From Chryseobacterium capnotolerans (lineage in GTDB: Bacteria; Bacteroidota; Bacteroidia; Flavobacteriales; Weeksellaceae): a stretch of DNA of 64,000 nucleotides. Under the pieces are notes generated by a model. It worked only from the letters and a program-made list of their open reading frames with translations, made no database searches and had not been told where the DNA came from. Made by a program: the position numbers and the translations under genes. The stretch lies in contig NZ_CP065589.1 of the NCBI RefSeq assembly GCF_021278965.1, forward strand, positions 3,911,001 to 3,975,000, given 5' to 3'. Positions 2,648-60,005 of the stretch are shown in pieces. The stretch's first letter is position 1; every line of letters begins with the position of its first letter.

Positions 2648-4146
2648 AGATTCGTTATTTTAGAGTTTGTTTTTTGCCATTGCCATTTCCAGAGACTATA
2701 CCGAAGTTTTTCATTAATATGAGAATAATCCATAATATTTTCTGTCATTCCATAAATGTAGGTATATTCTGCATTAGAATCTGCAGCATTATTGGTAAAA
2801 CTATGAGGTATTCCTTTGGTATGCAAGAATTCATGTGCTGCGGTTTCATTGCTCTTTCCAGGAAATAGGATTACAAAATCATTGAGGGCATAGCCATTCA
2901 AACCTTTATACGCATTTGATTTGTCCATACAGCCTCCATTTTCTCCCAGATAAAAGGCGACAAAATATTTACTGTATTTGTATTCATTCTCTTTTTTATT
3001 CTTCAGGTCTTCTTTTAGTTTTCCGTTAAGGTAAAAAGCAAGATTCATATATCCTTTTACATGAGCCGAAGGAATATGCTTTTCATTGTCATAATATGCC
3101 AATATATTTCTACCTTCCACATATTTTCCGCCTGATTGTAAATTAGAATCAGAAGATAAATCCAGAGAATAGGTTTCTACCTCTATTTCAATCAATGCGT
3201 GCCGAAGATATTTTTCAAATAACTCTTTTTGCCCAGAAGCCATTCCTTTTCTTTCTCCTTTTGTGAGTATAATTTCAGGTGTTTTAATTTCTACTAATAG
3301 CGCCTTAGCCTTCTTCCTTTTCGAAGCATCATTCGCCCAGACCTTCAGTTTTCCAGCCAGCTGTTCTAATTCTTTTCCTTCTTCATTTTTAGAAACAGCA
3401 TATACTTCTATATCCTGATCCACAAAAAATTCTTCCAAGCATTCTATTGTAACATAATCTTTAAGATCATGTTTACCCTTGCTTTTGGTAGTGATTTCCA
3501 TCGGGTCTATCTTAAAATGGGGATTCTCTTTAAATATTAAAATCTGTGGTTCTTCGTCCACTTCCACAATAAGGCTTAACAACGCTTTGGTATTGCTAAA
3601 ACCAGAAGCTGTAAGATTTCCGGATTCATCTTTTATCTGGGAAGGATACAAAGAAAGCCAGGAACAGAAATAATCTTCTGCACTGCCATCTGCTTTTTTC
3701 TTCCAGGGAATACTATATACTCCATATTCATTCCTTAGCCTGGCAAATAGAGAGGACGAGGTTTTAAAATCTCCTTCATATTCATTAGGATCGGTTTCCA
3801 GCGTGGTAAAAGCTTTATCTTTTTTATCTTTACTTTTCTTATACTGTTCAGCGACTACCTCTTTATAATTTTTATCTCCAAAATTGGAAGTCTCCCCCAA
3901 CCGCATCCAATCGAAGCCATAATCTTCTCCTTTCCAATGATCTTTTGCCCTGAACTGCACCAGACATTTCGCGGGTAACTCTATTCCCGGTGCATATTTG
4001 GGAATTCCATAACTAACCCCATCTTTTACACCTGTTTCTGTAATTGAATTCCCTGCAGTAGTGATAATATTTTCATTGGAATACATGCTATGCCCTTCCT
4101 GGGAAATCTTGGTATAGGTCCCCTTTACAATTCTCGTTCTGCTCAT
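2644..4146 (-). CDS. putative contact-dependent effector with metzincin-type protease motif
   Basis: The 500-residue protein carries HExxHxxGxxH at residues 438-448 (HEFLHTKGIPH) followed by a Met-turn-like IMDYS at 471-475, the zinc site of metzincin proteases. The N-terminus (MSRTRIVKGTYTKISQEGHS) has no signal peptide; similar N-termini occur on polymorphic effectors of Bacteroidota that I associate with type VI-like delivery (inference). Residues 60-400 hold repeated beta-rich segments without recognised domains. A 4-bp overlap couples it to a lipoprotein, which fits toxin plus immunity. No secretion genes are in the window. Alternative: an intracellular processing protease. Confidence 0.7.
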   Translation of the reverse strand: MSRTRIVKGTYTKISQEGHSMYSNENIITTAGNSITETGVKDGVSYGIPKYAPGIELPAKCLVQFRAKDHWKGEDYGFDWMRLGETSNFGDKNYKEVVAEQYKKSKDKKDKAFTTLETDPNEYEGDFKTSSSLFARLRNEYGVYSIPWKKKADGSAEDYFCSWLSLYPSQIKDESGNLTASGFSNTKALLSLIVEVDEEPQILIFKENPHFKIDPMEITTKSKGKHDLKDYVTIECLEEFFVDQDIEVYAVSKNEEGKELEQLAGKLKVWANDASKRKKAKALLVEIKTPEIILTKGERKGMASGQKELFEKYLRHALIEIEVETYSLDLSSDSNLQSGGKYVEGRNILAYYDNEKHIPSAHVKGYMNLAFYLNGKLKEDLKNKKENEYKYSKYFVAFYLGENGGCMDKSNAYKGLNGYALNDFVILFPGKSNETAAHEFLHTKGIPHSFTNNAADSNAEYTYIYGMTENIMDYSHINEKLRYSLWKWQWQKTNSKITNL

Positions 4147-14596: not shown

Positions 14597-14947
14597 ATGC
14601 GTCCCAATTATAAAAAAATATATCAGGACATGCTTAAGATGGATTACCCGGATAAGCTAAAAGATCCTAAAATAAAGGAGCTTCTCGGAAAGCTGGACAC
14701 CAGCGAAGATGTATTGAAATTCAATGAAAAGCTTTTTAAACCTTCCAAAGAAGGCCAGAAAAATAATCAAAAGCTAAAGACTTATGACAAAAAAACGATG
14801 CTTAAACTTCTTGAATATCAAAAGAAGCATGGGCACTCTACCAGTTATATGTCTAAAAAATATAAGATCAGCAGAACCACTCTCTCCAAATGGAAACTGA
14901 TGTTTGAAGAAGAGCTGGAACAAGCCATGAAAAAAGCCGATAAATAA
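14597..14947 (+). CDS. helix-turn-helix protein, second of a pair
   Basis: The 116-residue protein begins MRPNYKKIYQDMLKMDYPDK and ends with a helix-turn-helix (MLKLLEYQKKHGHSTSYMSK, then YKISRTTLSKWKLMF). The domain is like the DNA-binding part of IS3-type OrfA, but no transposase catalytic gene follows. It directly precedes a strong terminator that also faces the Y RNA cluster from the other side. Role unknown; regulation of a mobile element is possible. Confidence 0.75.
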   Translation: MRPNYKKIYQDMLKMDYPDKLKDPKIKELLGKLDTSEDVLKFNEKLFKPSKEGQKNNQKLKTYDKKTMLKLLEYQKKHGHSTSYMSKKYKISRTTLSKWKLMFEEELEQAMKKADK

Positions 14948-14962
14948 CTTATCGGCTTTTTT
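14931..14962. terminator. bidirectional terminator
   Basis: A 13-bp perfect stem AAAAAGCCGATAA / TTATCGGCTTTTT separates the plus-strand HTH pair from the minus-strand Y RNA cluster and can end transcription from both sides. Confidence 0.88.
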
Positions 14963-14965
14963 GTA

Positions 14966-15091
14966 AAGGTAATAGTAAGGAAAAAGCGGGGCTTACGTGA
15001 GCCGGAGTCGAACCGGATAGCCTTGCCAGAGTTACCGGCTTCGCTATTCCTCCCTCAAATGGTACGATGAACTTTTTCCTAACGACACTTG
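14966..15091 (-). ncRNA. candidate Y RNA G
   Basis: The 5' end reads CAAGTGTCGTTAGGAAAAAG and the 3' part CTTTTTCCTTACTATTACC; GGAAAAAG/CTTTTTCC gives 8 bp, followed by the bulged head region with the shared GTGTCGT box. Inside is a T-arm-like hairpin CCGG-TTCGACT-CCGG. No canonical D-arm is seen. It ends just before the terminator at 14931-14962. It is the last of the Y RNA candidates in the direction of transcription. Confidence 0.65.
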
Positions 15092-15101
15092 TAATTTATA
15101 G

Positions 15102-15216
15102 AAAGGAAGCTTGAAGTGGGAAGAAAGGAACTTGTTAAAGTCTGAAAGAATATCTGCCTGACTTTATAGAAAATTACGATACAAAGATTATATCCTACTT
15201 CCCGCTTTTGGCTTCA
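15102..15216. repeat. REP-like inverted repeat, GGAAG family copy 1
   Basis: GGAAGCTTGAAGTGGGAAG at one end and CTTCCCGCTTTTGGCTTC at the other form a long imperfect stem. Related copies are near 27.77, 42.34, 54.28 and 58.48 kb. Confidence 0.55.
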
Positions 15217-15256
15217 GTTAATTTATTTTTTTAATATTGTATTTAAAATAATAAAA

Positions 15257-15388
15257 CAAGGCAACAGGCAAATAGTGATGTCGTGCTCTACCAGCTGAGC
15301 TACTTTTCCTGTGTCTTAGTGGAAAAGACGGGATTCGAACCCGTGTCCCCGTCGTAATGAGCGAAGTAACACTATTTTACGGCACTTG
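15257..15388 (-). ncRNA. candidate Y RNA F with circularly permuted tRNA module
   Basis: The ends pair (CAAG/CTTG, AAATAGTG/CACTATTT) around the shared GTGCCGTA box. The body reads T-arm (ACGGG-TTCGAAT-CCCGT, 15328-15344), acceptor 3' strand CTTTTCC, an 11-base linker, acceptor 5' strand GGAAAAG, then a canonical D-arm (TAGCTCAGCTGGTAGAGCA). This is tRNA order turned inside out: the acceptor is closed by a loop and the Y stem takes the place of the anticodon arm. It is the layout reported for the tRNA-like module of bacterial YrlA RNAs. A T-rich tail follows. Confidence 0.85.
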
Positions 15389-15401
15389 ATTGTTTTTAAA
15401 A

Positions 15402-15499
15402 AAAAGAGGCAAATTTTGAAAAGACATTTACAGATCACTTTCATGATCTTCTGGAGTCGAACCAAATAAACCGAAGTAAGCCTTTTCTACGGCACTCTT
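15402..15499 (-). ncRNA. candidate Y RNA E (short form)
   Basis: Starts AGAGTGCCGTAGAAAAGG and ends CTTTTCAAAATTTGCCTCT followed by eight T. The stem uses GAAAAG/CTTTTC and AGAG/CTCT with the shared GTGCCGTA box bulged between. Inside are a short T-loop-like hairpin (TGG-TTCGACT-CCA) and a hairpin AGATCA-TGAAAG-TGATCT where the acceptor would be; no D-arm. Confidence 0.72.
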
Positions 15500-15506
15500 T
15501 TATACA

Positions 15507-15650
15507 AATCAGGGTAATATTTCCAGAATCGTTCATGCATTTGCTCTACCTGCTGAGCTACTTCTCCTTTTCGAGGAAAAAGGCAGGATTCGAACCTGCG
15601 CCCCAATGTTTATTCAATCTCGAAGTATGATTCTAAGACGACACCTGATT
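15507..15650 (-). ncRNA. candidate Y RNA D with circularly permuted tRNA module
   Basis: ATCAGG/CCTGAT and AGAATC/GATTCT form the Y stem around a GTGTCGT box. The body has a T-arm (GCAGG-TTCGAAT-CCTGC), an acceptor closed by an 8-base loop (CTTTTTC/GGAGAAG), and a canonical D-arm (TAGCTCAGCAGGTAGAGCA). Order is again T-arm, acceptor, D-arm. Compared with copy F, the stem sequences differ but the pairing is kept. Confidence 0.83.
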
Positions 15651-15663
15651 TTTAGTTTTTTAC

Positions 15664-15709
15664 TTTTTCATTTGTATTAGTTTCAAGTATAATTCTTGAA
15701 AGACACTTG
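15664..15709 (-). ncRNA. possible degenerate minimal Y RNA
   Basis: Starts with the shared CAAGTGTC head and contains a hairpin TTTCAAG-AATTATA-CTTGAAA, but lacks the conserved 3' part. It could be a remnant or a very small Y RNA. Confidence 0.3.
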
Positions 15710-15716
15710 AAAAAAG

Positions 15717-15840
15717 CAAGGCAATCAGTTAAACAGACTCATATTAACAGCGTACTACTTTACACCACCTGCTTCCGCAGAACAGGACTTGCACCTGTAC
15801 CTCTGTTACCCCACGAAGTAATTCTGTTTTACGGCACTTG
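15717..15840 (-). ncRNA. candidate Y RNA C with tetraloop-closed acceptor
   Basis: CAAG/CTTG and AAACAGA/TCTGTTT build the Y stem around GTGCCGTA. Inside are a T-arm-like hairpin (ACAGG-TGCAAGT-CCTGT), a 5-bp acceptor-like stem closed by a GGAA tetraloop (TCTGC-GGAA-GCAGG), and a D-arm-like region (GTGTAAAGTAGTACGC). It begins 2 bp after the stop of a small gene, so gene and RNA are probably one transcript. A T6 run follows. Confidence 0.78.
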
Positions 15841-15842
15841 CT

Positions 15843-16065
15843 TTAATTTTTCCATTGGGTGTTTCTGTATTTCTTCCAGCATCGCTGAAACTTAGTGTAC
15901 TTTGCATTCACCACTTCAAAGCCGTGTGGAAAACAATATGAACAACCTAATTCATCTCCATATAAAATTCTGGAAATCCGTATTCCGGAAATTTTCTTCG
16001 GGAAATCAATCAACCCATATTCATTGATTCCGAAAATTTGTTTTAATCTTTTGATTTTTTTTCAT
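15843..16065 (-). CDS. small Cys-containing protein inside the Y RNA operon (frameshifted)
   Basis: A coherent frame translates to GINEYGLIDFPKK, ISGIRISRILYGDELGCSYC, FPHGFEVVNAKYTKFQRCW, KKYRNTQWKN. The only good start is an ATG at 16063-16065, from which it is out of frame by one base in the A run (16055-16062, T on the plus strand). With 7 instead of 8 A it gives 73 residues. A CSYC pair and basic C-terminus suggest nucleic acid binding, but no family is recognised. It lies between the second promoter element and Y RNA C. Confidence 0.55.
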
Positions 16066-16143
16066 GAGTATTGAGTATTAACCTCAATACACTGCTTCTT
16101 TAAGATCTGTTTTATAGTTATTCATGGTTATTAATTGATCCTA

Positions 16144-16180
16144 CAAATTTATATGCTTACTGCGCATTCTTTTTACGCAG
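16144..16180 (-). promoter_or_regulatory. TGCGTA-type promoter for the main Y RNA unit
   Basis: Minus strand: 20-bp element CTGCGTAAAAAGAATGCGCA (16161-16180), 9-bp gap, then TAAATTTG (16144-16151). Identical architecture to the elements at 16357, 19364 and 58423. It faces the small gene and Y RNAs C to G. Confidence 0.8.
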
Positions 16181-16196
16181 TTTATTTTTTTATAAA

Positions 16197-16272
16197 AACC
16201 AAGCAATGTATTGTAAGAGTAATTAGTTTCAATTGGAAGTTGACGATGAAACTCTTACGGACGGCATTGGTT
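16197..16272 (-). ncRNA. candidate Y RNA B
   Basis: AACCAA/TTGGTT and GTAAGAGT/ACTCTTAC pair with an ATGCCGTC box on the 5' side and ACATTGC on the 3' side. The end loop is a hairpin AGTTTCA...TGAAACT. There is no tRNA-like part. It lies 3 bp after Y RNA A, so both likely derive from one transcript ending in the T-rich run after GGTT. Confidence 0.7.
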
Positions 16273-16275
16273 ATT

Positions 16276-16345
16276 TTACCGGGTAATTTGGCGAAAGGCT
16301 CTGTCATTTTGGAATCGAAGTAGGCCTTTCTTACGACACCGGTAA
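16276..16345 (-). ncRNA. candidate minimal Y RNA A
   Basis: TTACCGG/CCGGTAA and GAAAGGC/GCCTTTC form the Y stem with the GTGTCGTAA box on the 5' side and CCAAATTAC on the 3' side. The loop contains CTACTTCG, a motif shared with the other copies. It starts about 12-18 bp downstream of a TGCGTA-type promoter, so it is the first product of that promoter. Confidence 0.75.
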
Positions 16346-16356
16346 TATTAATACTG

Positions 16357-16393
16357 CAAAATTATATGCTAAGTACGCATTCTTTTTACGCAG
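16357..16393 (-). promoter_or_regulatory. TGCGTA-type promoter for Y RNAs A and B
   Basis: Minus strand: CTGCGTAAAAAGAATGCGTA (16374-16393), 9-bp gap, TAATTTTG (16357-16364). It ends just before the stop of the upstream DUF6584 gene (16401). Confidence 0.82.
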
Positions 16394-17622: not shown

Positions 17623-17639
17623 TTGCTAGCCCCGATTGC

Positions 17640-17710
17640 AGTGGCATTCTTTTTCTGAATTGGCCTCGGCCAGGCGAAAAAGATATAGCGGAAAGCGGGA
17701 ATAAGCTCCT
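17640..17710. repeat. hairpin-rich intergenic element
   Basis: TCTTTTTC...GAAAAAGA with inner TGGCC/GGCCA forms a stem flanked by CCCGATTGCAGTGG and GCGGAAAGCGGGA. This looks like a genome-dispersed Chryseobacterium repeat, but only one copy is in the window. Confidence 0.35.
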
Positions 17711-17784: not shown

Positions 17785-19302
17785 TTACAGCACTACTTTT
17801 TCAATGATTTCTATGGCCGATTTCTGATCTTCCAACGCATTCAAAACATCGAAAATCTTGTCTGACCAACCTGCAATAAGGTATACATCATTTCTTTTGA
17901 TATCAATAGGCTGTCTGCCGTAGCCTGCCAAATCAAAAATATAGAGTTTAGCATTTGGTGCTATCATCTTATATCTGTTCCAGCTATCTTCAAAAGAGTT
18001 TCCTCTTCCGCTGCTATCCCACATTTGGGTATCTGTGAACAACATCACTTTATCTACAGTTTCTTTTCTTTTGATAAGGTCTTCAATCACCAGATAACCA
18101 TTGGTAGAATACCCTACTTCACCTTCTCGTTTGTATAATGCATCTACATTTTGAAGAATACCCTGTTTAGGCATTGGAGTTCTCAACCATCGGTCACCGA
18201 ACATACCCGTAATTACATTCTGACATTGTGACTGCAGAATCATAGACATCAGCAAACCAATATCATACAACAGCACTTTACTTCTAGGAGAAACTGATTT
18301 CTGCATAGAACCTGAAACATCCGCCGCAATCACTACCGAAGTATTGAATCCGAAACCTTTGATGTTTTGAGCACTTGCTAAGACCGCTTCTTCCAAAGCA
18401 TTCCAAACTGAGGACAGATAAGGCAAATCTACATTTTTCAATTCTCTGTACGCAGCAAGAAAACGGAATGGCAATTGTTTTGAATTTTTTACCGCTCTCT
18501 CATCTGATAGATAGTTGCACACTTTACTCATTGCTTCAGGAGAAACTCCTGCTTCAAGGATATTTCTCAGGTTTCGCAAGGTGGCCATATACCCCAGTTT
18601 ATTACTAAAGATCAGTTCTTCCCATTTATTTTTGAAAGCTATTTTCTTTTCTGCTTCATCTGTAAATTTTGTCTGTCCCAATACTGAAAGCTCTACTTCC
18701 CATGTATAAGGAGTATCCAAAATATCATAGACAATCTTATTGAAAATAGTCTGCTGGTTTTCATCTTTCGCTTTTGGATGAACCAGGAACAGAGCATCTT
18801 TAAAGGTAACTTCTCCTTTTCTGTTGTATTTGGCGAACTGGTATTCATCAAATTTATTGAAGGACTTCACCAAACCTTTCTGAATCTGTTTTGATAATCT
18901 GTTCAGCTTTTTGGTTTCTGTTCTTTCATTGGCAAGCTGGTAATATGCCAATAGTTCAGTAATTTCATCAGCTCTTTGGATGACTCCGTCTACTGTTCTG
19001 CTCACCAGATCAGTACCAGAGGCCTCTTTTGCCAATTCTGTGGCCAAAACCAATGGAATGGAACGCATATGCATCTCCTTTCTTGCATATACAGCGAGCT
19101 TTGCTACAAATTCGGGATCGTTTTTCTGAATCAGAGACTGTATTCTCCCTAATCTGTCATTTCCTTTTTCATAAGTAATATTCGACAGTCCTGTTGTAAC
19201 CACAGCACTGTATAATTCTTCTGCAGGTGTCATCACATATGCTTTTGCACCTTCGTGGTTGGTTACCACTATTTTCTCTTTTTTTAGAAAGTTAAATTTC
19301 AT
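17785..19302 (-). CDS. rsr: Ro60 orthologue (TROVE plus vWA domain)
   Basis: The 505-residue protein has a TROVE HEAT-like ring at about residues 20-300 (KLAVYARKEMHMRSIPLVLA is typical) and a von Willebrand A domain at 320-500 with the metal site DVSGS at 328-332 and LFTDTQMW. In other bacteria Rsr binds Y RNAs and misfolded RNAs and works with exoribonucleases such as PNPase. Length is family-typical. It has its own TGCGTA-type promoter at 19364-19400, and at least seven candidate Y RNAs follow on the same strand 1.4-2.8 kb downstream. Confidence 0.93.
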   Translation of the reverse strand: MKFNFLKKEKIVVTNHEGAKAYVMTPAEELYSAVVTTGLSNITYEKGNDRLGRIQSLIQKNDPEFVAKLAVYARKEMHMRSIPLVLATELAKEASGTDLVSRTVDGVIQRADEITELLAYYQLANERTETKKLNRLSKQIQKGLVKSFNKFDEYQFAKYNRKGEVTFKDALFLVHPKAKDENQQTIFNKIVYDILDTPYTWEVELSVLGQTKFTDEAEKKIAFKNKWEELIFSNKLGYMATLRNLRNILEAGVSPEAMSKVCNYLSDERAVKNSKQLPFRFLAAYRELKNVDLPYLSSVWNALEEAVLASAQNIKGFGFNTSVVIAADVSGSMQKSVSPRSKVLLYDIGLLMSMILQSQCQNVITGMFGDRWLRTPMPKQGILQNVDALYKREGEVGYSTNGYLVIEDLIKRKETVDKVMLFTDTQMWDSSGRGNSFEDSWNRYKMIAPNAKLYIFDLAGYGRQPIDIKRNDVYLIAGWSDKIFDVLNALEDQKSAIEIIEKVVL

Positions 19303-19363: not shown

Positions 19364-19400
19364 CAAAATAAGGACCCTATTGCGTAATCTTTTTGCGTAG
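19364..19400 (-). promoter_or_regulatory. TGCGTA-type promoter of rsr
   Basis: Minus strand: CTACGCAAAAAGATTACGCA (19381-19400), 9-bp gap, TTATTTTG (19364-19371). Half-sites are TACGCA here, the complement of TGCGTA. Expected leader about 55 bases. Confidence 0.8.
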
Positions 19401-54418: not shown

Positions 54419-54492
54419 CAGAAACAAACCGGGATCGAACCGGCAACTCAGCCTGTGCTTGGCGTGTTTTTCCAATTAAACTACTGTTTCTG
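54419..54492 (-). ncRNA. tRNA-like element 3
   Basis: Acceptor-like stem of 9 bp (ACAGAAACA/TGTTTCTGT), D-arm GTTT...AAAC, T-arm GCCGG-TTCGATC-CCGGT. The anticodon arm is weak (GCC-AAGCACA-GGC, only three pairs) with A at position 33. Read as a tRNA it would carry GCA, but it is not a normal tRNA-Cys. It lies between the repeat-protein gene and tatD. Confidence 0.6.
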
Positions 54493-56868: not shown

Positions 56869-56946
56869 AGTAAAAGAAAACCGGGATCGAACCGATAATG
56901 CACTCTGTAGGAATGAGTTTTTCCAGATTAAACTATTTCTTTTACT
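56869..56946 (-). ncRNA. tRNA-like element 1 with 11-bp acceptor
   Basis: AGTAAAAGAAA/TTTCTTTTACT gives an 11-bp perfect acceptor-like stem, four more than a tRNA. D-arm GTTT...AAAC, anticodon-like hairpin CATT-CCTACAG-AGTG, T-arm ATCGG-TTCGATC-CCGGT. Not a normal tRNA; isotype cannot be assigned. Confidence 0.62.
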
Positions 56947-56957
56947 ATATTAGGTTG

Positions 56958-57029
56958 TGAGATAAGCAGGACTCGAACCTGCAACTCATTTTAGCATAAT
57001 GTGTTTTTCCATTTTAATACTATTATCTC
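56958..57029 (-). ncRNA. tRNA-like element 2, GCU-like anticodon
   Basis: Acceptor GAGATAA/TTATCTC, D-arm-like TATTAAAATGGAAAAACA, 4-bp anticodon stem CATT-ATGCTAA-AATG, T-arm GCAGG-TTCGAGT-CCTGC. The anticodon would be GCU (Ser), but it lacks the long variable arm of tRNA-Ser. It begins 10 bp after the SDR stop. Confidence 0.62.
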
Positions 57030-57038
57030 CATTTGAAT

Positions 57039-58403
57039 TTACCAGGTATGAATTTTATAGTTTTTTAATAAAACTCCGCTGAAGTAATTCCCTTTTATTC
57101 CTTCTCCGATTGGATGCAGAATTCTTGCCGCTCCATCTACAGAATCCAATGGCGGGATATACCCCTGTTCAAATTGCTTCTTTCTTAAACTTTCCTTGGC
57201 TCCCGTAGAAATCCAACCTACATCTACGGCACTCATATAGATCTGATCATTTTCAAATTCTCTTGCTGAGGTAAGTGTCATCATATTGAGCGCTGCCTTC
57301 GTCATGTTGGTATGTGGATGAAACACCGTTTTATTTTCATAGCTGAATATCCCTTCCGAAGAAGTCACATTGATGATAAATTTTTCTTTAAAAACTGAAT
57401 TTTTCATCAGAGGCTTCAATTCCTTAATCAGAAAATAGGGTGCTATATGATTAATGAGATTTACCTCTACCAGTTCATACATTGATACCTCTTCCAGCGT
57501 AGAATTCCAGCTCGTCTTCTCTCTGTTATCTACAGGCTGTCCGAAACGGGTAAGCTCAACCTGAGTTGTTTCATTCTGGGCATATTCCAGTTTTGCCGTT
57601 TCATTTGAAATTTCTGTACGATTTGGTATCAGATGCTGAAGGTCTGTAAAATCAATCAGTTTTTCCTTTTCACGTTTGATGATCGAAAAATAGTATTCAT
57701 CAGGATATTTAATCGTCTGAGCAGCATTATTGATCAGGATATCGAGCGTATCAAAATTTAATTTATAGAAATTTATAAAATCCTGAATAGCCTGAAGATT
57801 TCTCAGATCCAGCCCATATATCCAAAGTCTGTCTTTCCAGTTTTCATAGTCTGTTTCCTGCTGTATAAGCTCCATAGCAAGTGCCGGGAAACGGGTTGTC
57901 AAAACCAAATTAGCTCCGCTTCTCAATAATTTCAATGCAGTGGCAAAACCTACTTTTACTCTTCCTCCTGTCAGGATCACATTTCGTCCTGTAAGGTCTA
58001 CCTTTTCAAAACGTTTTTCATAGTTTTCTCCGGCACAAACCGGACATAATCTTGAATAGAAAGAATGAGCATACTGATAACTTTGATTACAGCAGTAGCA
58101 GTTTTTGGGAATTTGAAGTTTAGTGAGCTTCATCTCATCTTTTTCATCGTCATAAAAAGCAGAAACTCCAGCCAATGCTTTCTGCATCAACACAGAACCA
58201 GAATTTATAGTGAGATCATGAGATTTCATCTCAGAATAATGCCCACTACGGCTCTGCTTCCTGGCATTCTTATGTATTTTCGTTATCAGTCCTGAAAATA
58301 TTTCATTATCAGGATTCTGAAAAGGATCATCTTTCAAAGCAAAAAGTACCTTGAGGCATATTTCCCATTCTTCCGTTGAAAATCTTTGTTCTGATAAATT
58401 CAT
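57039..58403 (-). CDS. SDR oxidoreductase with N-terminal zinc ribbon
   Basis: The 454-residue protein has a zinc-ribbon-like pair CYCC (102-105) and CPVC (120-123) before an SDR domain: cofactor loop TGGRVKVG (145-152), LDLR, ILINNAAQ and a TSSEG...K-type active-site region. SDRs oxidise or reduce alcohols/ketones with NAD(P). The ribbon plus a roughly 140-residue N-terminal extension is unusual for SDRs. Its promoter is a TGCGTA-type element shared with rsr and the Y RNAs, so it belongs to the same regulon. Confidence 0.85.
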   Translation of the reverse strand: MNLSEQRFSTEEWEICLKVLFALKDDPFQNPDNEIFSGLITKIHKNARKQSRSGHYSEMKSHDLTINSGSVLMQKALAGVSAFYDDEKDEMKLTKLQIPKNCYCCNQSYQYAHSFYSRLCPVCAGENYEKRFEKVDLTGRNVILTGGRVKVGFATALKLLRSGANLVLTTRFPALAMELIQQETDYENWKDRLWIYGLDLRNLQAIQDFINFYKLNFDTLDILINNAAQTIKYPDEYYFSIIKREKEKLIDFTDLQHLIPNRTEISNETAKLEYAQNETTQVELTRFGQPVDNREKTSWNSTLEEVSMYELVEVNLINHIAPYFLIKELKPLMKNSVFKEKFIINVTSSEGIFSYENKTVFHPHTNMTKAALNMMTLTSAREFENDQIYMSAVDVGWISTGAKESLRKKQFEQGYIPPLDSVDGAARILHPIGEGIKGNYFSGVLLKNYKIHTW

Positions 58404-58422: not shown

Positions 58423-58459
58423 CAAAATTATGATAATGGTACGCAATCTTTTTACGCAG
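58423..58459 (-). promoter_or_regulatory. TGCGTA-type promoter of the SDR operon
   Basis: Minus strand: CTGCGTAAAAAGATTGCGTA (58440-58459), 9-bp gap, TAATTTTG (58423-58430). Leader about 12-15 bases. Same layout as at 16144, 16357 and 19364. Confidence 0.85.
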
Positions 58460-58633: not shown

Positions 58634-59290
58634 CTACTCATTGATAAATTTTTCCAGAAACCCTATCAGCTTTGTTCCACTGTGGCTCCAGCGAATTCCG
58701 TGCCCCTCTTTTTCCCGGACTTCAAACACCAATTCGTGTTTATAATGAAAGAAGACATTCCACCAGGTTTTATTTTCAAGGATGTACCGAATTTTCTGCA
58801 TCACTTTTTCCTGTTTCTGCTTATTATTTCCTTTTACTTCGCCCCAAAAATCATCATCATTCATTCTTCCGGTATGTTTTTCCCAGGCACGTTGGGCAAT
58901 GGTAATTTCTTCGTTAAAGGACTTCTGGCAAGCTTCAATCAAAACAGAAGTTAGGGGCGGGACTGCTGTTTCATCACGAATACTTGCTGAGGTTAGCCTT
59001 TGCCCTAAAACAATCAGCCAGTCTTCAAATGATATTTTTTCCAAATACTTTGCTTTAACCTCATCAGTGTCATTACAGGTAAAGATCTTGACAAACTGAT
59101 TAAAGACTTTTTCCCTGTCAATACTTATTTCTTCATTAAAATAAGGCAGATTCCAGTCCAATATTTTATCCTGAAATTTTTGAATGTTTTCATCCAACAT
59201 TTTTAAATGCTCTTCTACCAGAATAGGCTTATACTTTTCCTTCCATTCATCTGAAATGAAAGGAATATAGTGTTCAAACTTATTGATCAT
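58634..59290 (-). CDS. hypothetical protein, 218 residues
   Basis: Charged helical protein with no recognised domain. Features include ISFEDWLIVLGQRLTSASIR near the middle and a C-terminal HELVFEVREKEGHGIRWSHSG. It overlaps the upstream DUF434-like gene by 11 bp, so the two are co-translated, and lies just upstream of the SDR promoter. Confidence 0.65.
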   Translation of the reverse strand: MINKFEHYIPFISDEWKEKYKPILVEEHLKMLDENIQKFQDKILDWNLPYFNEEISIDREKVFNQFVKIFTCNDTDEVKAKYLEKISFEDWLIVLGQRLTSASIRDETAVPPLTSVLIEACQKSFNEEITIAQRAWEKHTGRMNDDDFWGEVKGNNKQKQEKVMQKIRYILENKTWWNVFFHYKHELVFEVREKEGHGIRWSHSGTKLIGFLEKFINE

Positions 59291-60005
59291 AACATTGTAT
59301 CAAATTAACAGATAAGTTTTCTTCCTTGATCAGATAGCCGATGAGGTTAAACCATTCTTTGCAATGATCCAAAATCCAGGCATCTGAAGAAATAATTGTT
59401 GCTGCGCTTTCTGCCAGAAACTTATCGGGGCTAAACTCAAGTTCGGCCTCCCAGTTAAGTTGATTTTCCACCGCAGCATCAAGAACCATCTGCTTAATTC
59501 TTCCGCTGTTGGAAACCGGCTGGTCAAAAATCCAAACCAATTTCTGAACCTGGCTTTTCTGAAAAAACATCCCCACAAGTTCTATGGCTCTCTGGGTCTG
59601 GTTGACCCTCTTATACGTTCCATGAACACCGGAGAGATCTCGAAAACAACCATCAACCCCTTCAAAAATATAGGCTTCTGACAATAAACTTTCCAACAGA
59701 ATCAATACATTGAAGCCATCAAGGTAAACGGTTTTCTCTTTCAGATCTGATATTTTCTGCTGTTTCTGCTTTCTGTCATAAATTTGTTCTTCAGATGCTG
59801 ATGCACCACGCAAGACTTGTATCTGTCGTGTTTTCAATCTATATCTGTTTCCAACAAGATCAGACGCCGCTTTTTCGGCATATCCTCTTGTGAGTAAATA
59901 CTGCATATCCTGAACAGCCAATTTCAGCTTGCTGATCTGTTTTTCTGAACCGAACAGCATATCATCGCCTGTATTTTTTCCGCGGTTTCTGTTATTCATA
60001 CTCAA
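59280..60005 (-). CDS. DUF434/DUF5616-like protein (PIN-like)
   Basis: The 241-residue protein has a DUF434-type N-terminus (KLKLAVQDMQYLLTRGYAEKAA) and then YLDGFNVLILLESLL, VDGCFRDLSGVHGTYKR, LVWIFDQPVSNSGRI and TIISSDAWILDHC. The spacing of acidic residues (Asp in DGFN, FDQP, SSDAWILD) is PIN-nuclease-like, so an RNA-cleaving role is possible but unproven. First gene of a two-gene unit. Confidence 0.72.
   Translation of the reverse strand: MSMNNRNRGKNTGDDMLFGSEKQISKLKLAVQDMQYLLTRGYAEKAASDLVGNRYRLKTRQIQVLRGASASEEQIYDRKQKQQKISDLKEKTVYLDGFNVLILLESLLSEAYIFEGVDGCFRDLSGVHGTYKRVNQTQRAIELVGMFFQKSQVQKLVWIFDQPVSNSGRIKQMVLDAAVENQLNWEAELEFSPDKFLAESAATIISSDAWILDHCKEWFNLIGYLIKEENLSVNLIQCYDQ

Follow-up and report, generated by a model that had tools for sequence, protein, structure and literature searches.

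Bacterial Y RNAs, their tRNA mimicry and their linkage to rtcB are already known. The YrlA type (Rfam RF02553), whose structure is available as 6CU1 (passages of PMC8394870 and PMC11472068), adjoins rsr and combines a basal stem with a circularly permuted tRNA-like domain. According to passages of PMC7790460 and PMC9879122, the Salmonella rsr-yrlBA-rtcBA genes form an RNA-repair operon under control of RtcR and sigma54, and the latter source gives the signal for RtcR as an oligoribonucleotide ending in a 2',3'-cyclic phosphate. Rsr of Deinococcus is joined to PNPase by a Y RNA tether (passages of PMC7790460 and PMC8394870). The locus described here shares with these systems a Ro protein with adjacent Y-like RNAs. 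It lies in a window of 64 kb, the whole stretch of DNA that was analysed, and consists of an rsr gene and an array of seven RNAs (A-G, 14966-16345) on the minus strand:

17785..19302, minus strand: rsr, encoding a TROVE and Ro60 vWA protein of 505 aa
16276..16345, minus strand: putative Y RNA A, 70 nt; short stem-loop, core G-U with A-C; homologous DNA in 36 of 80 loci, 25 at a coverage of at least 85%
16197..16272, minus strand: putative Y RNA B, 76 nt; short stem-loop with CATCG; homologous DNA in 54 of 80 loci, 47 at a coverage of at least 85%
15713..15844, minus strand: putative Y RNA C, 132 nt; T arm and other hairpins; homologous DNA in 52 of 80 loci, 38 at a coverage of at least 85%
15506..15651, minus strand: putative Y RNA D, 146 nt; circularly permuted tRNA-like domain (T arm, acceptor-like helix, D arm); homologous DNA in 66 of 80 loci, 59 at a coverage of at least 85%
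15402..15501, minus strand: putative Y RNA E, 100 nt; T arm and a hairpin; homologous DNA in 60 of 80 loci, 38 at a coverage of at least 85%
15257..15388, minus strand: putative Y RNA F, 132 nt; circularly permuted tRNA-like domain; homologous DNA in 77 of 80 loci, 67 at a coverage of at least 85%
14966..15091, minus strand: putative Y RNA G, 126 nt; T arm within a conserved multi-hairpin head, weak outer stem; homologous DNA in 67 of 80 loci, 43 at a coverage of at least 85%

The homologue counts were obtained by BLAST against 80 fetched related rsr loci and the coverage figures refer to best matches.

We consider it likely that the seven RNAs are the Y RNAs of the Rsr ring, that they carry exchangeable heads, and that the array is switched by a WYL regulator in an RNA-damage response. 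The Y RNA reading, which is the best one for the array RNAs and is supported at the level of sequence, follows from the neighbouring TROVE/vWA gene, the covarying basal stem, the YrlA-like permuted domain in D and F and the co-occurrence with rsr. Confidence in the whole explanation is tempered by a shifted core in D and G and by a promoter that is looser outside near relatives. Rsr would grip the shared clamp of each RNA, and each head would serve as an exchangeable adaptor that chooses the partner of the ring (PNPase, tRNA-handling enzymes or RNA substrates). The WYL regulator would bind an operator common to rsr, the array, rtcB and an RlaP gene, so that an RNA-damage signal would switch on the array alongside RNA-repair genes.

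As compared to YrlA, there are 2-12 RNAs per locus with several head types, and the Rfam scores are below threshold. As in Salmonella, the Ro protein, the Y RNAs and the RtcB ligase appear linked under one regulator, but seven RNAs are present instead of two, and rtcB lies far from rsr. Whereas the Salmonella operon belongs to RtcR and sigma54, the candidate here is a WYL-type regulator, which has an operator of its own; a search for RtcR (PF06956) gave no match in the host genome, with the E. coli control being detected. By analogy, we read the array as the equivalent, under WYL control, of the operon that RtcR governs in Salmonella. Large multi-head Y RNA arrays and WYL control of rsr were not found in the literature searched, a scope that leaves the central Y RNA papers outside. 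New here is the shared operator TRCGYA-N7-TRCGYA before rsr and the array. A sequence-only reading of this DNA had already pointed to the array; it missed the tRNA mimicry, the shared operator and the link to RNA-repair genes.

That reading had placed the RNAs 1.4-2.8 kb downstream of a TROVE gene, which is correct, the open reading frame in question encoding a Ro60 homologue. The protein scores 109.6 bits against TROVE (PF05731, cut-off 23) and matches the TROVE chains 9l5y/9kop in the PDB with E 4.8e-27. It combines the TROVE domain with a vWA domain, as expected of Rsr, the score for vWA_Ro60 (PF25045) being 24.2 bits, just under the cut-off of 27.7; against the NCBIfam Rsr equivalog it reaches only 24.4 of 900. 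The closest named rsr loci are from Chryseobacterium, and the host genome measures 5.36 Mb.

Re-inspection of the sequence bore out the boxes, the coordinates and the strand that had been claimed for A-G. Several array RNAs have repeated 5' boxes in common, and the proposed presence of CTTCG in most of them holds for five of the seven (A, C, D, E and F), with CATCG in B and G. A scan of both strands of the window for the box pair, requiring at least 4 pairs in the outer stem and at least 5 in the inner one, recovered A-F and nothing else. The outer stem of G has 3 pairs and was missed by this strict scan; the assignment of G draws on its homologues. The spacer between F and G contains a hairpin of ~110 nt (15105-15215, minus strand) that is not Y-like and is possibly a small mobile repeat.

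The clamp shared by the RNAs consists of an outer stem, an unpaired U and a core of two pairs, G[C/U] with [G/A]C; an asymmetric internal loop, in which CGU(A) faces about N5-UU, separates this core from the inner helix. The stem boxes had been likened to the Ro60-binding helix of Y RNAs. The single bulged pyrimidine and the bulge on the opposite strand do agree with the vertebrate helix as described in passages of PMC4726728, but sequence and lengths differ and the bulged base is U instead of C, which leaves a resemblance only. Outer stem and inner helix were obtained with RNAalifold in all seven homologue sets, each composed of the window copy and a diverse subset of 11 to 27 homologues; the rows are best matches by sequence, not by structure, and some paralogues are mixed in (the D and F sets have one L108 RNA in common, and two F rows look D-type). 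The basal stem joining the 5' and 3' ends is conserved in the seven sets and weakest in G, whose outer stem is almost invariant among homologues.

Changes on both sides of a pair were found in all seven sets: 5/16 pairs in A and in B, 14/34 in C, 14/29 in D, 7/22 in E, 18/31 in F and 14/28 in G. This agrees with the earlier claim that the stems differ while pairing is kept, and where absence of covariation had been named as the adverse outcome, the homologue alignments gave covarying stems instead. In A, B, C, E and F a core pair switches between C-G and U-A (10 versus 9 in B, 6 versus 6 in C). For D and G, RNAalifold favours a core moved by one position, in which GUG pairs with UAC and the unpaired U is absent; the clamp as drawn is therefore less certain for these two. 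Shuffle and slid-partner controls support the stems of F, B and G. The F set has 80 cells with both-sided changes versus 18.6 in shuffles, and 98.8% of its cells are paired versus at most 51.9% with slid partners; in B the number of further pair types was not above shuffles (414/500). Single-sequence folding energies of D, F and G are unremarkable (z -1.58, -0.69 and -1.05), so that covariation and conservation carry the case.

A relaxed scan, with an outer stem of at least 3 pairs, downstream of the 80 related rsr genes gave 389 sense and 6 antisense matches, against 3.7 in dinucleotide shuffles. With the 5' and 3' boxes swapped there were still 59 matches, a number partly explained by one swapped combination that forms a G-U wobble. 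Decayed tRNA genes or mobile repeats with stems formed by chance would account for the tRNA-looking T and D arms and for the 5' boxes repeated in several RNAs. Such an origin is ruled out by covariation, strand bias and co-occurrence with rsr, and we give it next to no probability: both-sided changes appear in all seven sets, with controls for three, matches stand at 389 versus 6 between the strands, the RNAs are conserved across families, and they occur together with rsr. Combining box and scan matches, the arrays contain 2-12 RNAs with a median of 7 in 78 related loci, L067 and L071 having too little downstream DNA. The seven RNAs, which had been called remarkable, are thus not exceptional in this group.

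The earlier reading had suggested a covariance-model search in related genomes, and models built from the F and G homologue sets do find other array RNAs. The F-set model (R1), built from F homologues of which some are D-type, matched D, E, C, B and A in the window at E 4.5e-21 to 6.8e-5 and G at only 0.019, all on the correct strand. It also matches part of a tRNA cluster, with a best E of 1.3e-5 that is better than that of A. The G-set model found E, F, A, B and C at E 3.6e-4 to 0.1 and gave no match to D in the window.

R1 and rsr occur together in the genus as well as in the phylum. Among 148 genus genomes, TROVE is present in 105, a strong R1 match in 104 and both in 102, which means strong matches in 102/105 rsr-positive versus 2/43 rsr-negative genomes, at a cut (best E at most 1e-15) picked after the table had been inspected. 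The cut excludes 13 genomes with a best E between 5e-8 and 1e-6, whose matches we take, by analogy with the window, for tRNA-gene artefacts. The three genomes with TROVE and no strong model match (G017, G034 and G062) have one weak TROVE match each, and the two with the reverse pattern (G038 and G123) are 87% and 73% complete.

In 395 genomes of the phylum the model (E at most 1e-9) matched 21 and TROVE 28, with 20 genomes having both; hence 20/28 TROVE genomes have model matches versus 1/367 others. Eight TROVE genomes lack a match at 1e-9. Five of these were fetched: four have matches at looser cut-offs, one of them solely upstream of rsr, and the remaining one has a single weak match, upstream of rsr. 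Altogether 20 of the 28 phylum TROVE loci were fetched, and the model gives 72 matches in them at E up to 0.1. Every one of these lies on the same strand as rsr; 69 follow the gene and 3 precede it. The number per locus is 3-5 in 17/20, the others (L166, L183 and L184) having 1, 1 and 2. The three upstream matches belong to L183 and L184; in the latter, a distant genome, the Y-like matches (3164-3402, minus strand) lie upstream and not downstream of rsr. The clamp scan gave 45 sense and 3 antisense matches in the 20 phylum loci, with 3.0 in shuffles, and found nothing in L170 and L178-L180, although model matches are present there.

The heads attached to the clamp fall into several types. D and F possess a T arm, an acceptor-like helix and a D arm, ordered as in the permuted domain of YrlA, and judged from this arrangement they are circularly permuted tRNA mimics of the YrlA type. 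Their scores with RF02553 are 33.3 bits (F) and 31.9 bits (D), below the gathering threshold of 69. In C, E and G there is a T arm only, and the plain stem-loops A and B yielded neither a T arm nor a D arm. Matches to other Rfam families in the array (tRNA, tmRNA, VrrA, AS-pc01 and others) were all below their own thresholds. Among the 389 sense matches of the relaxed scan, 86 heads have permuted T and D arms, 142 have T only, 3 have D only and 158 have neither. About seven distinct heads on one clamp provide a handle on why one Ro ring keeps several Y RNAs.

The operator precedes rsr once and the array twice. A fourth copy and a probable terminator are also found in the window:

19364..19399, minus strand: promoter-like site of rsr; operator 19381-19399, N9, TTATTTTG
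16357..16392, minus strand: promoter-like site P1 of the array; operator 16374-16392, N9, TAATTTTG
16144..16179, minus strand: promoter-like site P2, between B and C; operator 16161-16179, N9, TAAATTTG
58423..58458, minus strand: fourth operator promoter, upstream of an SDR gene (57039-58403)
14930..14956, minus strand: probable terminator after G, an inverted repeat followed by T6, recognized by eye and missed by the terminator scan

With two operator promoters and a likely terminator, the array is probably made as long transcripts, which would then be cut into the individual RNAs. The four exact operators in the window compare with 0.04 expected, and the 5.36 Mb genome has 9 exact sites with 1 for the backwards control; the motif was drawn by eye from three sites (two of the array and that of rsr), and the other six genomic sites are independent. 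All nine are followed by N9 and T[A/T]nnTTTG, which we take to be the Bacteroidota -7 element. No match to TTTG-N17-21 or TTG-N17-22 before TAnnTTTG was found on the minus strand at 14.9-19.6 kb, and sigma-70 promoters in the array gave no signal (6 versus 4.7 in shuffles).

Upstream of rsr the exact operator is conserved in 77/80 related loci, the other three having one mismatch, and it lies before or within the array in 73/78, with the exact N9-T[A/T]nnTTTG spacing in 61/78 arrays. The 80 loci contain 207 counted operator sites; 158 with this spacing lie on the rsr strand and one on the opposite strand, and 27 have a different spacing in the range 7-11. In the phylum just 2/13 operators upstream of rsr have the exact spacing and box, and the N9-T[A/T]nnTTTG form of the promoter is therefore a feature of near relatives.

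The remaining genomic operators stand before rtcB, before an RlaP gene and before three genes of no assigned function. These three, L003:664-1434, L004:109-1185 and L005:569-1444 (minus strand), lie behind exact operator promoters; two of them have no Pfam match and one encodes a DUF5677 protein. A gene run behind an exact operator (L120:13061-16308, plus strand) encodes two RlaP proteins and an ATP-grasp R2K protein.

The operator is most likely bound by the WYL-WCX regulator encoded beside rtcB, as judged from position and co-occurrence. In the host genome a divergent hopJ-WYL pair adjoins rtcB, which is 0.7 Mb away from rsr; no exact operator is found near a second rtcB gene, located at 5.18 Mb. 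The WYL protein is present in 59/59 genus genomes, its gene persists also in genomes without rsr, and on its rtcB side the operator is exact in 26/30 loci, has one mismatch in 3 and is absent in 1. In the phylum a WYL homologue (E at most 1e-20) was found in 14/20 genomes, in 10 of these 14 divergent from rsr within 2 kb. The exact operator is located upstream of rsr in 13/14 phylum genomes with WYL and 0/6 without (Fisher 1.8e-4, a value that overstates independence since the 14 genomes are related). In the fourteenth genome with WYL (G347) the operator follows rsr and precedes the array, and the fetched stretches of the six genomes without a WYL match contain no exact operator.

Since the host genome encodes five WYL proteins, the operator could belong to a regulator other than this WYL protein. 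We think this rather improbable, given that in several families the operator lies beside the WYL gene or between WYL and rsr, and that it is absent upstream of rsr in 6/6 genomes without WYL. In other families WYL and rsr often point away from each other on either side of the operator, and rtcB is often located behind the array (Pfam RtcB in 11/20 phylum loci, the only 11 in which open reading frames were tested there). From these arrangements, WYL / operator / rsr - Y array - rtcB looks like the ancestral order. With the WYL-WCX protein as its probable ligand, the operator points to a candidate sensor and a defined RNA-damage gene set in a group without RtcR in the examined genome, and it ties Ro biology to other tRNA mimics.

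Two such groups of mimics were found. Behind rtcB (L120:8220-8332, plus strand) lies a tRNA-like RNA in which ~60 nt replace the anticodon arm; D and T arms are present in 8/13 loci, the own genome and one without rsr included. It is followed by short hairpins (L120:8335-8510), with the motif GTTCCTAT found in 10/13 loci. In the window, tRNA-like genes are located at 56870-57029, directly behind the SDR gene, and at 54419-54491 (both minus strand). The operator and 2-8 T arms behind the gene are present in 16/20 fetched SDR loci, own included, which have at least 78% identity; in the other 4 (52-54% identity) the operator is absent. The SDR-linked genes have odd anticodons and a Ser(gct) without a long variable arm, and on these grounds they are taken for tRNA mimics. 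A YrlA match at 56882-57013 was rejected as a Y RNA: it spans two adjacent tRNA-like genes and the clamp scan was empty, though R1 gave E 2.1e-4.

These RNAs bear on a different role for the array, in which the Y RNAs are mainly decoys whose tRNA-like heads absorb tRNA-cleaving nucleases or protect tRNAs, with Rsr merely stabilising them. A competitive-inhibitor role has been suggested for YrlA (passages of PMC7790460), and tRNA mimics recur behind the same operator, both as the rtcB-linked RNA (8/13 loci) and as the 2-8 genes behind SDR. But A and B have no tRNA-like part and C, E and G merely a T arm, the permuted mimics are devoid of the anticodon arm that anticodon nucleases attack, and in Salmonella YrlA is uncleaved according to passages of the same source. 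We therefore hold a mainly decoy function to be unlikely and prefer the reading as Rsr adaptors with exchangeable heads. As a wider and tentative possibility, Bacteroidota may have a WYL-sensor RNA-damage regulon whose output would largely consist of tRNA-mimicking RNAs (the Y adaptors, the rtcB-linked RNA and the SDR-linked mimics), acting together as adaptors, decoys and templates in the response to tRNA cleavage.

Two further features of the window lie close to these genes. Upstream of the SDR gene, 59280-60005 (minus strand) encodes a DUF434-DUF5616 protein. Between rsr and the downstream genes, on the opposite strand, an Rfam Flavo-1 RNA is found at 17624-17706 (plus strand) with 59.8 bits, above the threshold of 42.
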